Part shown: in pieces, positions 34,864-39,960 of the stretch | Position numbering within the stretch: the stretch's first letter is position 1 | Layout: every line of letters starts with the position of its first letter | From: a virus | DNA length: 43,946 bases | Virus record (IMG/VR): IMGVR_UViG_3300012930_000016 | Span: 1 to 43,946 of that record | Strand: one strand, 5' to 3' | Notes under the pieces: model-generated | Seen by the model: only the letters and a program-made list of their open reading frames with translations | What the model was told of the DNA's origin: nothing | The model's database searches: none | Position numbers and translations under genes: made by a program

Positions 34864-35148
34864 ATGACGGAGCAAGAGGAGCTGGTTGGTATGCCGCAGG
34901 TGTGCGCGCTGACTGGCTTCAAGCCGGATACGGTGCGCAACTACCTGGCGCGCACCAACCGCAAGGAGCGGGAGGGCACTGAGCGAGGACCGTTTGACTT
35001 CCCGCCTAAGTGCGGTGAGGAGCGGCGGGACTTCATCAAGTCGAACGGTCAGCGGGGCGTGGTGATGAACTCGCCGCTGTGGAGGCGGGCGGACATCGAC
35101 CGCTACCTTGAGGCGCGCGCTGCGCGGGAGCGGGAGCTGGTGCAGTGA
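34864..35148 (+). CDS. HTH protein, first gene of the modification operon
   Basis: A 94-residue protein starting MTEQEELVGMPQVCALTGFK. The segment GMPQVCALTGFKPDTVRNYLA is a MerR/excisionase-like helix-turn-helix, and SPLWRRADIDRYLEARA at the end matches the usual second part of such domains. It has an exceptionally strong ribosome site and is coupled by GTGA to the ParB-like gene. It may regulate the deazaguanine genes or guide a DNA-acting partner. Confidence 0.7.
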   Translation: MTEQEELVGMPQVCALTGFKPDTVRNYLARTNRKEREGTERGPFDFPPKCGEERRDFIKSNGQRGVVMNSPLWRRADIDRYLEARAARERELVQ

Positions 35149-35765
35149 CCGAGCAGGCTGAGTTCTGGCTGGCCCAGCAGGAGTACGACCCGGCGATACC
35201 GATTGACCAGCTGACGGAGCACCCGGACAACTACAACCAGGGGGACATCGGGGCGATCTCGGTGTCGATGGACTCGCACGGGTTCTACGGGGCGGTCATC
35301 GCGCAGCGCAGCACGGGGCGCATCCTGGCCGGCAACCACCGTTACCGCACCGCGCAGGTCAAGGGGGCGCATACCATCCCGGGCTTCTGGCTGGAGTGCG
35401 ACGACGACGAGGCCGCCGAGATCCTCGCGGTGGACAACCGGACAACCCACCTGGCCACCTTCGATGAGGCGAAGCTGGTGGAGCTGCTGACCCGCGCAGC
35501 GCACTCACCCCGGGGACTGGCAGGCACGGGGTACAGCGGGGATGACCTGGACGACCTGATCCAGCAGCTCCAGCCGCCTGACCTGGGCGGGCTTGGCGGG
35601 GGTAGCGGCGGTGGCCCGAACGACGAGGACTTGTGGCCGGTGCTGAAGTTCAAGGTGGCCCCGGAGGCGCGGGACCGGTTCTACGCGCTGACGGACGAGG
35701 CCACTGAGACCAGTGACGCGGGCCGGTTCATGCACCTCCTGGGCGTGGCGCAGGGGACCGAATGA
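35145..35765 (+). CDS. ParB-like nuclease-domain protein
   Basis: A 206-residue protein. IPIDQLTEHPDNYNQGDIGAI, GFYGAVIAQRSTGRILAGNHRY and EAAEILAVDNRTTHLATFDE form the ParB/sulfiredoxin-type domain (residues ~17-115), including the GNHR motif that binds nucleotide in this fold. A Gly-rich linker and a small C-terminal domain (LKFKVAPEARDRFYALTDE) follow. Bacterial dpd clusters also carry a ParB-like ATPase (DpdB) beside DpdA, so a role in target DNA recognition or modification is plausible. Coupled by ATGA to the methyltransferase. Confidence 0.75.
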   Translation: MTEQAEFWLAQQEYDPAIPIDQLTEHPDNYNQGDIGAISVSMDSHGFYGAVIAQRSTGRILAGNHRYRTAQVKGAHTIPGFWLECDDDEAAEILAVDNRTTHLATFDEAKLVELLTRAAHSPRGLAGTGYSGDDLDDLIQQLQPPDLGGLGGGSGGGPNDEDLWPVLKFKVAPEARDRFYALTDEATETSDAGRFMHLLGVAQGTE

Positions 35766-36334
35766 GCGGCGACTGGAACGTTGCGCAGGTGGTAGCGCAG
35801 CTCGCGGTCGGGGAGTACCACGCTATCCAGCAGGAGGACGAGCTTGCGGAGCTGCTGCGGCGGGTGATGGGCCTATGGCCGAAGATCATCATCGAGATCG
35901 GCTGTGACGCGGGCGGGACGCTGTACGCATGGCGGCAGCTATGCGGTGAGGTGTACGGCATCACGCTGCCGGTGTCTCCCCCGGGCGAGGGGATGTTCGC
36001 GCAGGGCGTGCACCCGCTTAACCCGCACGGCGCGCGGGTGTACTTCGGTGACTCCCACGGGCGGGACGCCTACCTGTGGCTGACGCGGCAGCTGGACGGC
36101 CGGAAGGCCGACTTCCTGTTCATCGACGGCGACCACGACCCGTACGGGGTCCTGGCCGACTTCGACATGTACGGGCACCTGGTGCGCCCGGGGGGGGTCA
36201 TCGCGCTGGACGACGTGGTGAACCCGGACCTGTCGGTGCGGCTGGCGTGGCTAACGATCAGCGCCACGCACCCCCGCACAGAGGTCATCAGGCGCGGCAG
36301 CCTGCCAGCGGGGATCGGGATCGTGCATGCGTGA
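35762..36334 (+). CDS. Class I SAM-dependent methyltransferase
   Basis: A 190-residue protein. Motif I IIIEIGCDAGGTLYAW, an acidic residue after it in EVYGITLP, then ADFLFIDGDHDPYGVLADF and LVRPGGVIALDDV match the Methyltransf_24 / cephalosporin-hydroxylase-like group, which acts on small molecules or sugars. No NPPY or DPPY motif of base N-methylases is present, so it is not a classic DNA N-methylase. It overlaps the dpdA gene by eight bases, so it may decorate the deazaguanine base, a nucleotide precursor or another substrate. Confidence 0.78.
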   Translation: MSGDWNVAQVVAQLAVGEYHAIQQEDELAELLRRVMGLWPKIIIEIGCDAGGTLYAWRQLCGEVYGITLPVSPPGEGMFAQGVHPLNPHGARVYFGDSHGRDAYLWLTRQLDGRKADFLFIDGDHDPYGVLADFDMYGHLVRPGGVIALDDVVNPDLSVRLAWLTISATHPRTEVIRRGSLPAGIGIVHA

Positions 36335-37271
36335 GCCTGACGGCATCTGCCGCATCCTGGTCTCGTACTGGTATTACCGCAAGCGGGACCTGGCGGCGCT
36401 GGCCGGGCAGACGAAGCTGCCGGTGCAGCTGTTCGCTGACTCCGGGGCGTTCACGGCGTTCACGATGCGCGGCAGCGGCGCGGTGATCAGGCGCGAGGAG
36501 TACGCGGCGTGGCTCAAGCACTGGTGGCCGCTGCTGTCGGTCGCGGTCAACCTGGACGTGATCGGTGATTCCGCCGGCAGTGCCCGCAACCAGCTGTGGC
36601 TGGAGGGGCAGGGGCTGCCGGTCCTGCCCGTCTACCACATGCAGACCCCGCTTGCGGAGCTGCACGCGCTGTGCCGCGACTACCGGTACGTCGCGGTCGG
36701 GGGGACGGCGAACCTGAAGGGCGCGAACAAGCTGGCCGCCACGGCGCGGGCCATGCTGATCGCCAGGGAGCACGGTACTCGCATTCACGGGCTGGGCCGG
36801 TCGGCGTCGGCGGAGCTTGCCGCGCTGCCGTTCTGGTCGGTGGACTCCTCATCGTGGTCGCAGGCGTCGCGGTTCGGTGGGCTGGCGGTGTTCGAGGACG
36901 GCAAGGTGCGGTCGCTGCGGGTGCAGGACGCGGTCGGGCGTCCGCAGCTACTGCGCGCTCATGGCGCGGACCCGCAGCTGATGCGCGATGCCGCCTATGC
37001 GAACACGGGCCGCAAGTGGGGGCGGGTTAAGACCCAGCAGGCGTATGACCGGGAGCGCCACGAGTCGCTGCGGGTGGCGGCGGTGGCGTGGAAGCGGATG
37101 GAAGCGTACCTCCAGCAGCGGCACGCGGTGCCTGCACCGCCAGGGCTGGAGGGCGATGGAACCACGATGTGGTTCGTGGATGCGGTCCCCGAGAGGCTGC
37201 ACCAGATGATGAGGGCCGTGGAATGGCTCGCGGACAGGCCCGGCGCAAGCACCAGGAAAGGTGAGCGATGA
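36327..37271 (+). CDS. dpdA: DpdA-like DNA guanine transglycosylase
   Basis: A 314-residue TIM-barrel protein of the TGT superfamily. LFADSGAFTAF with Asp38 matches the DSG.F active-site motif. VNLDVIG follows, then a YVAVGG strand in the base-binding region. The pair FWSVDSSSWSQ with Asp173 is where the nucleophilic Asp is expected. It lacks the zinc-binding Cys cluster and RNA-binding parts of bacterial tRNA TGT, as is usual for phage DpdA. It would exchange guanine in DNA for preQ0. It is coupled by ATGA to QueC and is followed by the entire preQ0 pathway. Confidence 0.85.
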   Translation: MREPDGICRILVSYWYYRKRDLAALAGQTKLPVQLFADSGAFTAFTMRGSGAVIRREEYAAWLKHWWPLLSVAVNLDVIGDSAGSARNQLWLEGQGLPVLPVYHMQTPLAELHALCRDYRYVAVGGTANLKGANKLAATARAMLIAREHGTRIHGLGRSASAELAALPFWSVDSSSWSQASRFGGLAVFEDGKVRSLRVQDAVGRPQLLRAHGADPQLMRDAAYANTGRKWGRVKTQQAYDRERHESLRVAAVAWKRMEAYLQQRHAVPAPPGLEGDGTTMWFVDAVPERLHQMMRAVEWLADRPGASTRKGER

Positions 37272-38263
37272 AGCCGAGAGATCATTACGTCGAGACGGAT
37301 GAGGAGCACGGGAGCCGCCTGATCGCGGCGGCGGCGGTGCTGCCGGACATCGGGGTGCTGATGCAGCGCCTCCCGTCTCCCATGCTGCGCAGGTGGGGCG
37401 CGGTCCTGCACCATGACGAGCGGACGGTGAACGCGCTGCACCGGGTGCCGGTGCTGGGCGCGGCGTGGAAGGCCCACTACGTGCAGGACGAGGCGTCGCA
37501 CCCGCGTGGTACCTACCGCATCCCGGAGGCCGCAGGGTTGCCGCCTGCCGCGCGGATGGCGCTGCTGTACAGCGGGGGTCCGGACGCGTTCATCACCTGG
37601 CGGCTGCTGGGGATGCCGTCCGCGCTGTACGTGAACGTGGGCAACGCGGCCTGCGGTGAGGAGGCTCAGCGGGTGCAGCTGGCCAATCAGGCTTTCGAGC
37701 CTGACCGGCCGATCCAGCTGGTGCTAGGCGGCTCCCCGATGTCGGAGCTGCCTACCGGGTGGATCCCGAACCGGAACCTGCGGCTCATCCTCGCGGCTGC
37801 GCAGCTGCACCCGGACGTGGTGATCGCCCGGATCGCGGAGTGGGGGCCGGATAAGAACCCGGGCTTCTTCCGGGCGGTGGAGCGGCTGCTGGCCAGGTCG
37901 CGCGGCGGGCACTTCCAGGCGGCGACGAACGTGCCCCGGGTGCGCATCCACACCCCGTTCGGGCACCTGACGAAGACGCAGCTGGTGCGCAGGTACCTGG
38001 ACGCTCACCCGGCTACGGGAGTGGCTGACCTGAAGGACTTCACCTGGTCCTGCTACGGGCCGGGTCCGCAGTTCTGCGGGGAGTGCGGGGGCTGCTGGTG
38101 CCGGTGGGTGGCGTTCACCAACAACGGCATCTGGGAGGACGACCGGTACGCGCTGACGCCGAGGCGGCTGGACTACTACAAGCGGCTCCACTGGGCGGAC
38201 TTCCGCCCCGGCATGGTCCCGATGTACGTGAAGCGCGCGCTGGAGATGCGGGGGATGGGCTGA
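37268..38263 (+). CDS. queC: QueC, 7-cyano-7-deazaguanine (preQ0) synthase
   Basis: A 331-residue ATP-dependent enzyme turning carboxydeazaguanine and ammonia into preQ0. The PP-loop LLYSGGPDAF is at 100-108, instead of near residue 10 as usual. A zinc site at C262, C270, C273 and C276 (SCYGPGP..CGECGGC) with a following RWVAF is diagnostic of QueC. SELPTGWIPNRNLRLILAAAQ corresponds to the conserved PGRN.. segment. The N-terminal ~98 residues are extra, helical, lacking Cys2, and too short for the amidotransferase of Gat-QueC. Stop and next start share one base. Confidence 0.88.
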   Translation: MKPRDHYVETDEEHGSRLIAAAAVLPDIGVLMQRLPSPMLRRWGAVLHHDERTVNALHRVPVLGAAWKAHYVQDEASHPRGTYRIPEAAGLPPAARMALLYSGGPDAFITWRLLGMPSALYVNVGNAACGEEAQRVQLANQAFEPDRPIQLVLGGSPMSELPTGWIPNRNLRLILAAAQLHPDVVIARIAEWGPDKNPGFFRAVERLLARSRGGHFQAATNVPRVRIHTPFGHLTKTQLVRRYLDAHPATGVADLKDFTWSCYGPGPQFCGECGGCWCRWVAFTNNGIWEDDRYALTPRRLDYYKRLHWADFRPGMVPMYVKRALEMRGMG

Positions 38264-38658
38264 TGTACGAGATCACCAAGGAGTTCCGCTTCGCTGCCGC
38301 GCACCGCCTGAAGGGACTGCCGGCGGGGCACAAGTGCGCGCGGCTCCACGGCCACGGGTACATCGTGGTGCTGCACGCGCAGCGGAGCGACCTGGACGCG
38401 GTGGGCATGGTGTTCGACTACGCCATGTTCGACCCGTTCGCCCAGTGGCTCAAGGACACCCTGGATCACCGGTACCTCGGTGACGGGGATCTGGAAGACC
38501 TGCACGCCGACTTCACGGAAGACGCGGTGCTGGCCTTCCCGCCAACTGCCGAGCGGCTGGCGGACTACCTCCTCGGGCAGGCCCGGCTGATGTGCGGGGT
38601 GCTGGTGGACTGGTGCGAGGTCCGTGAGTCGCCATACACGGTCGCGAGGGCATCATGA
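38263..38658 (+). CDS. queD: QueD, 6-carboxytetrahydropterin synthase
   Basis: A 131-residue enzyme of normal length. FRFAAAHRL with His14 and RLHGHGY with His29 and His31 are the zinc ligands, Cys25 in GHKCARLHGH is the catalytic Cys, DYAMF and LDHRYL follow with the catalytic His, and FPPTAERLADYL is the PTxE motif near the end. It converts dihydroneopterin triphosphate, made by FolE, to 6-carboxytetrahydropterin. Coupled to queC and queE. Confidence 0.93.
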   Translation: MYEITKEFRFAAAHRLKGLPAGHKCARLHGHGYIVVLHAQRSDLDAVGMVFDYAMFDPFAQWLKDTLDHRYLGDGDLEDLHADFTEDAVLAFPPTAERLADYLLGQARLMCGVLVDWCEVRESPYTVARAS

Positions 38659-39386
38659 GCACGCTGGTGGTCAACCAGGTGTACGGCCCCGTCTGGCAGG
38701 GGGAAGGCCCTTCGGCCGGCCGGCATGCGTCGATCATCCGCCTCATGGGGTGCAACCTGGCGTGCCAGTGGGTGACCCCGCACGGGCTGTCACCGTGCGA
38801 CGAGTCCCAGACGTGGGACGCGACCCGCTTCGACCTGCACGCGCAGGGGAAGCGGATGGAGTCCGCCGAGATCGTGCGGGCGGCTATGGTCGGCAGCCCG
38901 CAGATGGTGATCATCACCGGGGGGGAGCCGCTGCTGCACCAGGGCCAGAACGGGTGGGCCGAGATGCTGTGGCACCTGGATTACGCCCGGGTGCGGGTGG
39001 AGGTGGAGACGAACGGCACGCAGGTGCCTACCGGGAACTGGGGCTGGTGCGTGGACCAGTTCAACGTCTCACCCAAGCTGGCCAGTTCCGGAGTGCCGCG
39101 CGACAAGGCCATCAACCCGGAGGCGCTAGGGCAGTTCGCGCAGGGTGGCCGGGCGGCGTTCAAGTTCGTGTCCAGCACCGTGGCCGACCTGGACGAGATC
39201 GCGCAGCTGACGCAGGAGCACGGGATAGCCCGCGAGCAGACGTGGGTGATGCCTGCGGGGGTGACCCGGGAGGAGATCCTGTGCACCGCCCGCGCGCTGG
39301 CTGACGGAGTGCTCCAGCGGGGGTGGAACCTGAGCCTGCGACAGCACGTGCTGGTCTACGACGACGAGGGGGAGAGCCGTGGATGA
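38655..39386 (+). CDS. queE: QueE, 7-carboxy-7-deazaguanine synthase, variant cysteine motif
   Basis: A 243-residue radical-SAM enzyme that contracts carboxytetrahydropterin to carboxydeazaguanine. PVWQGEGPSAGRHASIIRL leads to GC33NLAC37QW, then the third Cys only at position 48 (PC48DESQTWD). The spacing is CX3CX10C instead of CX3CX2C: eight residues, VTPHGLSP, are inserted between the QW and the CD. ITGGEPLLH (SAM-binding GGEP) and VEVETNGTQ follow and are normal. Related QueE enzymes with unusual spacing are known, so it may be active. ATGA overlap with queD. Confidence 0.88.
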   Translation: MSTLVVNQVYGPVWQGEGPSAGRHASIIRLMGCNLACQWVTPHGLSPCDESQTWDATRFDLHAQGKRMESAEIVRAAMVGSPQMVIITGGEPLLHQGQNGWAEMLWHLDYARVRVEVETNGTQVPTGNWGWCVDQFNVSPKLASSGVPRDKAINPEALGQFAQGGRAAFKFVSSTVADLDEIAQLTQEHGIAREQTWVMPAGVTREEILCTARALADGVLQRGWNLSLRQHVLVYDDEGESRG

Positions 39387-39960
39387 GCGGACGGTGCCCC
39401 GCCACGCGGAGGAGATGGGCGCGATCTTCCTGTCGCGGCTGGGCATCGACGTGGAAAGCCCGGAGATGAAGCGGACCCCGCTGCGGTTCGCGCAGGCGCT
39501 CGCGGAGCTGACGCGGAACCTGCGCGTCCCCTTCGACGCGGGCGCTGTGCTGGCAAGGCAGTTCGAGCCGCCCGCGCAGCACCCGCAGATCGTGCTGCTG
39601 TGCGACATCCCGTTCACGTCGCTGTGCGAGCACCACATCCTGCCGTTCACCGGCACGGCGACGGTGGGGTACCTGCCTCAGCCGGGCGCGAAGGTGGCGG
39701 GGATCTCAAAGCTGGCCAGGCTGGTGGAGGGGTTCTCGCTGCGCCCGCAGATGCAGGAGCGGATGGGCCAGCAGGTGGTGCAGGCGCTGGGTGATCACCT
39801 GGACATCCAGGGGGCCGGGTGCCTGATCGACGCGGTGCACACGTGTCTGACGCTGCGCGGTCCCCGCTCGGCGGGCGCGCGGATGGTGACGAGTCACCTA
39901 ACGGGGTGCTTCCTGGACGCCCCGGTACGACAGGAGTTCCTGGCGCTAGCCGGGAAGTGA
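39379..39960 (+). CDS. folE: FolE, GTP cyclohydrolase I
   Basis: A 193-residue enzyme from GTG at 39379. Zinc ligands Cys83 and His86 (LCEHHILPF) and Cys156 (HTCLTLRG) are present, with GISKLARLVEGFSLRPQMQER as the core active-site region and MVTSHLTG near the end. It turns GTP to dihydroneopterin triphosphate, the first step of preQ0 synthesis, giving the phage independence from host pterin levels. Last gene of the coupled deazaguanine set, overlapping queE by eight bases. Confidence 0.93.
   Translation: MDERTVPRHAEEMGAIFLSRLGIDVESPEMKRTPLRFAQALAELTRNLRVPFDAGAVLARQFEPPAQHPQIVLLCDIPFTSLCEHHILPFTGTATVGYLPQPGAKVAGISKLARLVEGFSLRPQMQERMGQQVVQALGDHLDIQGAGCLIDAVHTCLTLRGPRSAGARMVTSHLTGCFLDAPVRQEFLALAGK

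Follow-up and report, generated by a model that had tools for sequence, protein, structure and literature searches.

Phage 7-deazaguanine systems are an established strategy against restriction. The transglycosylase DpdA of Enterobacteria phage 9g has been demonstrated to insert a 7-deazaguanine into DNA (PMC6884629), and dPreQ0 in the DNA of phage Rosebush amounts to approximately 28% of G (PMC6884629). The gene order ParB, DpdA, QueC, QueD, QueE, FolE is already found in phages Sonali and CRB2 and in several viral contigs, and a similar one in Ares, a phage of the same genus as Rosebush; the cassette type of actinobacterial siphophages is both described (PMC6884629) and deposited in GenBank. 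Here we analyse a cassette of this type at positions 34864-39960 of IMG/VR virus record IMGVR_UViG_3300012930_000016 (positions 1 to 43,946, all 43,946 bases of which form the window referred to below). Its eight open reading frames encode, on the plus strand and in this order, a helix-turn-helix (HTH) protein, a ParB-like protein, a methyltransferase, DpdA, a QueC-like protein, QueD, QueE and FolE. The cassette very probably equips an actinobacterial siphophage to hypermodify its DNA with a 7-deazaguanine of its own making. The system as such is known; what is unusual is the QueC-like protein, which the window shares with two viral contigs, L004 and L005.

Genes 86-91 of Arthrobacter phage Sonali (MK411746) follow the order of the window from ParB to FolE, but the Sonali QueC is of normal size with all motifs, its QueE carries CX3CX2C, no methyltransferase separates ParB from DpdA, and the proteins are 27-43% identical to those of the window. 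In the Mycobacterium phages of the Rosebush group (Ares, JN699004) and CRB2 (MK059749), a regulator or ParB-like gene is likewise followed by DpdA, QueC, QueD, QueE and FolE. Unlike in the window, the QueC motifs of these phages are canonical, the cassette adjoins the terminase, and DpdA belongs to another clade. The cassette order of the window is kept in L004, with protein identities of 57-67% for most genes and 37% for QueE. Searches of viral contigs with QueC, or with alignments of DpdA, the methyltransferase and ParB, found only L004 and L005 of the close clade, and searches of the same kind with single DpdA or methyltransferase sequences found nothing. Close relatives of the QueC-like protein beyond these two contigs were found neither in the viral-contig searches nor in the genome collection.

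Canonical QueC is characterised by the motifs SGGxDS, YxQxHxxE, VPxRN and YPDC and a cysteine zinc motif, and mutagenesis of the E. coli enzyme in the same 2026 study found Y35, R99, Y131 and Y189 each to be essential for preQ0 formation (PMC13329287). We aligned the proteins of the window, L004 and L005 with nine others: the QueCs of E. coli, CAjan, Sonali, Mufasa8, CRB2 and Ares, and the Gat-QueCs of 9g, NP1 and Megan. YxQxHxxE is absent from the three QueC-like proteins, where the Tyr35 position is occupied by V, F and V in the window, L004 and L005, respectively (V-G-N, F-G-N, V-G-N). YPDC is replaced by GPDK in all three, with glycine at the Tyr131 position. Both tyrosines are retained in 9/9 comparison proteins. 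SGGxDS takes the form SGGPDS in L004 and L005 and SGGPDA in the window. VPxRN is present with the essential Arg99 (IPNRN or IPYRN), as is the zinc site with the essential Tyr189 (SCYGPGPxFCGxCGGC), and the four zinc-site cysteines and K165 are retained. An earlier note on this stretch had described a complete preQ0 pathway with DpdA and with all key residues visible, and had named dPreQ0 as the simplest prediction. DpdA, FolE, QueD, QueE and a QueC-family protein are indeed encoded, but the completeness of the preQ0 step is not supported, and the residues were overstated, as the QueC-like protein lacks YxQxHxxE and YPDC together with their tyrosines. Because the protein is missing two of the four residues that E. 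coli QueC requires, dPreQ0 is not a safe default, and the motif losses weaken its prediction.

The inserted base may nevertheless be dPreQ0, to which we give slightly less than an even chance. In this narrower form of our explanation, the window would encode a plain system like those of Rosebush and CAjan: its QueC-like protein would still convert 7-carboxy-7-deazaguanine (CDG) to preQ0, and DpdA would insert preQ0. The operon order matches that of the dPreQ0-group phages, and R99, Y189, K165 and the zinc cysteines are all in place. The Gat-QueC of 9g also deviates from the canonical motifs in our alignment, at Q37, H39 and C134, and is active. The losses in the window clade, however, include two residues that E. 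coli QueC cannot do without, and they are accompanied by an extremely long branch and by extra conserved stretches at both ends of the protein. The three QueC-like proteins measure 328-334 residues (331 in the window) against the usual length of approximately 230, and their N- and C-terminal extensions are conserved about as well as the core. In the QueC tree the branch leading to them is 4.47 changes per site long, compared to 1.11 for the DpdA clade in the DpdA tree, although long-branch effects make their exact placement unsure. A wrongly assigned start was rejected as the source of the extension, because the gene begins within the end of dpdA and its extension shows 64-67% conservation.

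The motifs lost are those on the substrate side, while most of those at the ATP and zinc sites remain, a pattern consistent with another narrower form of the explanation. The QueC-like protein might activate CDG but release a different product, either by stopping at 7-amido-7-deazaguanine (ADG) or by joining another amine; the methyltransferase may then methylate it, and the DNA would carry dADG or a new 7-deazaguanine. We consider this possible, with the balance tilted against it. The extensions are conserved in 3/3 members of the clade, an O-methyltransferase-like gene is coupled to dpdA in 2/3, and the QueC relatives QatC and Cap9 are known to have been retargeted to other acceptors (PMC13329287). 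On the other hand, no acceptor was identified, the methyltransferase is absent from L005, and the structure model of the QueC-like protein is unreliable (pLDDT 54.7), its fold search giving weak matches to PP-loop ATPases only. QatC and Cap9, which serve in anti-phage defence, resemble the window protein in that the substrate motifs of a QueC fold are remodelled, and QatC also has added N- and C-terminal parts (PMC13329287); VPxRN is lost in QatC but kept as IPNRN in the window, where the context is a DpdA cassette. An identity with QatC was unsupported: PADLOC returned only its QueC model, and the match to a QatC chain was weak, C-terminal and of E 0.64. The protein is not a Gat-QueC either. 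The enzyme of the 9g dG+ system carries a glutamine amidotransferase (GATase) domain and that of Megan matches GATase, whereas the extension in the window has no Pfam match. As the earlier note had it, neither QueF nor ArcS nor Gat-QueC was seen among the window proteins scanned, and the same is true of any GATase domain. A 7-deazaguanine new to DNA, made by a QueC-like protein that joins CDG to a group other than that of preQ0 and by the O-methyltransferase-like protein, seems rather unlikely.

The QueC-like protein could also be inactive or functionally unrelated, in which case the phage would insert CDG directly or use the preQ0 of the host. Bipper-type phages, which lack queC, are grouped as possible CDG users (compare the layout of Typha), and SGGPDA in the window copy is compatible with a loss of activity. 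The identity of approximately 70% over the entire protein, extensions included, among three diverged contigs nevertheless points to a selected function and renders this alternative improbable.

The window DpdA is homologous to that of 9g, with key residues alike. The 9g protein aligns with a profile of the window DpdA and its relatives over 176 residues (hhalign, E 1.9e-26, 99.7%), and tblastn with the window protein gives direct matches to 9g-like Escherichia phages. By bit score, the annotated protein nearest to it is the DpdA of Sonali, approximately 36% identical. The histidine at position 196 of 9g is conserved in 9g-type DpdA (DpdA1) and absent from DpdA2 (PMC6884629); the corresponding H154 of the window is invariant in 12/12 DpdAs compared, as are DSGA38-41, LDVIG76-80, P101, H104, G126, G157, S171 and D173, and with them the aspartates D38, D77 and D173. 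The alignment of E. coli tRNA-guanine transglycosylase (TGT) with the DpdA profile was limited to a short stretch. No solved structure matched the profile by sequence, and a fold search was therefore needed. AlphaFold2 modelled the protein with confidence (pLDDT 90.3), and the top matches of the model in the PDB are mostly tRNA-guanine transglycosylases (E from 4e-4, TM 0.42-0.55), outranked by two chains of a de novo designed protein. We thus classify the window protein as a 9g-type DpdA with a predicted TGT-like fold. The earlier note had taken a DpdA that aligns within tRNA TGT or an unrelated TIM barrel as a refutation; DpdA and tRNA TGT prove distinct by sequence, and the system is not refuted on this count. 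Some phages have preQ0 genes without DpdA, and the genes of the window might similarly boost tRNA queuosine precursors and leave the DNA unmodified. The presence of a DpdA unlike tRNA TGT in sequence, and the inability of 9g DpdA to substitute for E. coli TGT, make this very improbable. The insertion of a 7-deazaguanine into the phage DNA is likely.

The DpdAs of the window, L004 and L005 form their own clade in the tree, to the exclusion of the Rosebush group. Tandem DpdA duplicates are present in L004 (L004:6095-8004) and, separately, in Microbacterium phage Megan (L025:670-2543). Each tandem pair forms a clade of its own, so the duplication arose twice. Both L004 copies retain the conserved aspartates, and tandem copies perhaps serve different sequence contexts.

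The analysis directly shows the content and order of the genes, the homology and modelled fold of DpdA, and the motif losses of the QueC-like protein. We infer the following route, in which all enzyme activities, the product and the roles of the ParB-like protein and the methyltransferase are predicted ones. FolE, QueD and QueE would convert GTP to CDG along the established pathway. The remodelled QueC-family ATPase would use ATP to activate the carboxylate of CDG and turn it into a side-chain derivative, whether preQ0, ADG or another amide. By analogy with 9g, DpdA would swap guanine for the derivative base in phage DNA after replication, probably aided in engaging DNA by the ParB-like protein, and the methyltransferase would probably further modify either the base or its precursor. 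DNA modified in this way would block the restriction enzymes of the host.

Several points weigh against such a system. The QueC-like protein departs from two of the five canonical motifs, and its P-loop is altered in the window copy. The cluster spacing of QueE is unusual: the three cysteines are present, but as CX3CX10C, which is neither CX3CX2C nor CX14CX2C. No terminase and no portal were identified among the window proteins scanned, so the record may be a fragment, and another tailoring gene might be encoded beyond its ends. Finally, the sequence does not fix the product.

The QueE spacing in the window corresponds to an 8-residue insertion inside the Fe-S motif, between Cys2 and Cys3. L005 shares an insertion at this place (CX3CX11C), while L004, CRB2, Ares and Typha, like Sonali, have CX3CX2C; the QueE of L012 has CX3CX13C. 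The catalytic C-x3-H-x-H of QueD is present in the sequence, as are the zinc ligands of FolE (CEHH and TC). The FolE gene of L005 (L005:10324-11889, IMGVR_UViG_3300036829_000239) contains an in-frame intein-like insert of approximately 327 residues, located exactly before the zinc-ligand cysteine of CEHH. The insert begins with Cys, contains TPDH, matches the LAGLIDADG family PF14528 (6.8e-6) and ends with HN|C. The window FolE is uninterrupted. In a small literature search, no title reported an intein in a phage FolE.

The genes of the cassette are listed in Table 1. The earlier note had given the same run of genes, from HTH to FolE, and open reading frames and family matches bear it out; it had counted seven coupled genes, and the coupling is real, with an overlap of 1 to 8 bases at every adjacent pair, but the genes number eight.

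Table 1. Genes of the 7-deazaguanine cassette, with positions in the window
Product	Position	Strand	Supporting match
Small HTH/excisionase-like DNA-binding protein, 94 aa	34864..35148	+	phrog_597 E 1.4e-5; Shine-Dalgarno-like AGGAGG upstream
ParB-N-domain protein, 206 aa	35145..35765	+	phrog_723 E 1.5e-29
Class I S-adenosylmethionine (SAM) methyltransferase, 190 aa	35762..36334	+	PF13578 E 9e-10
DpdA, DNA-guanine transglycosylase (9g-type), 314 aa	36327..37271	+	phrog_887 E 6e-38
Divergent QueC-like PP-loop ATPase, 331 aa	37268..38263	+	PF06508 E 8e-12
QueD, 6-carboxytetrahydropterin synthase, 131 aa	38263..38658	+	PF01242 E 2e-22; TIGR03367 1.6e-19
QueE, 7-carboxy-7-deazaguanine synthase, radical SAM	38655..39386	+	phrog_2076 E 7.5e-52; TIGR03365 8.7e-17
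FolE, GTP cyclohydrolase I, 193 aa	39379..39960	+	PF01227 E 1.5e-48

The family matches of the seven genes from ParB to FolE are well beyond chance. The HTH assignment is weak, with Pfam below the cut-off, and the protein has a partial match of 47% in L005. The ParB-like protein is 74% identical in L005 and 65% in L004. In most related cassettes, including those of Sonali, Mufasa8, CRB2 and further viral contigs, dpdA has a ParB-like gene as its neighbour, and the protein is suggested to be a DNA-targeting partner for the transglycosylase. The methyltransferase, which in the window and in L004 (62% identical) separates ParB from DpdA, matches solved O-methyltransferases by profile (E 0.0012), and its sequence contains no DPPY, NPPY or PCQ motif of DNA N6, N4 or C5 methylases. 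We assume it is not DpdM, going by the unusual fold that DpdM presumably has. Just upstream of the cassette, at window:33400-34794, lies a gene for a DUF932/TIGR03299 protein (7e-66), homologues of which are found no further than approximately 2 kb from the cassettes of L004, Sonali and Mufasa8.

The window has a GC content of 69% and contains siphophage head, tail and replication genes. Its major head protein is closest to proteins of Gordonia phages, and many Mycobacterium and Arthrobacter phages were matched as well. The head-protein matches and the siphophage genes point to an actinobacterial host. No host was assigned, since two scans of genomes turned up neither a prophage nor a host copy.

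The base that a phage 7-deazaguanine system makes is usually guessed from gene presence. The presence of a 'QueC' can mislead in this respect: the enzyme of this clade lacks residues without which E. coli QueC does not form preQ0, in an operon that is otherwise standard. The clade therefore bears on whether QueC tolerates a rebuilt pocket or whether phages make a further 7-deazaguanine.

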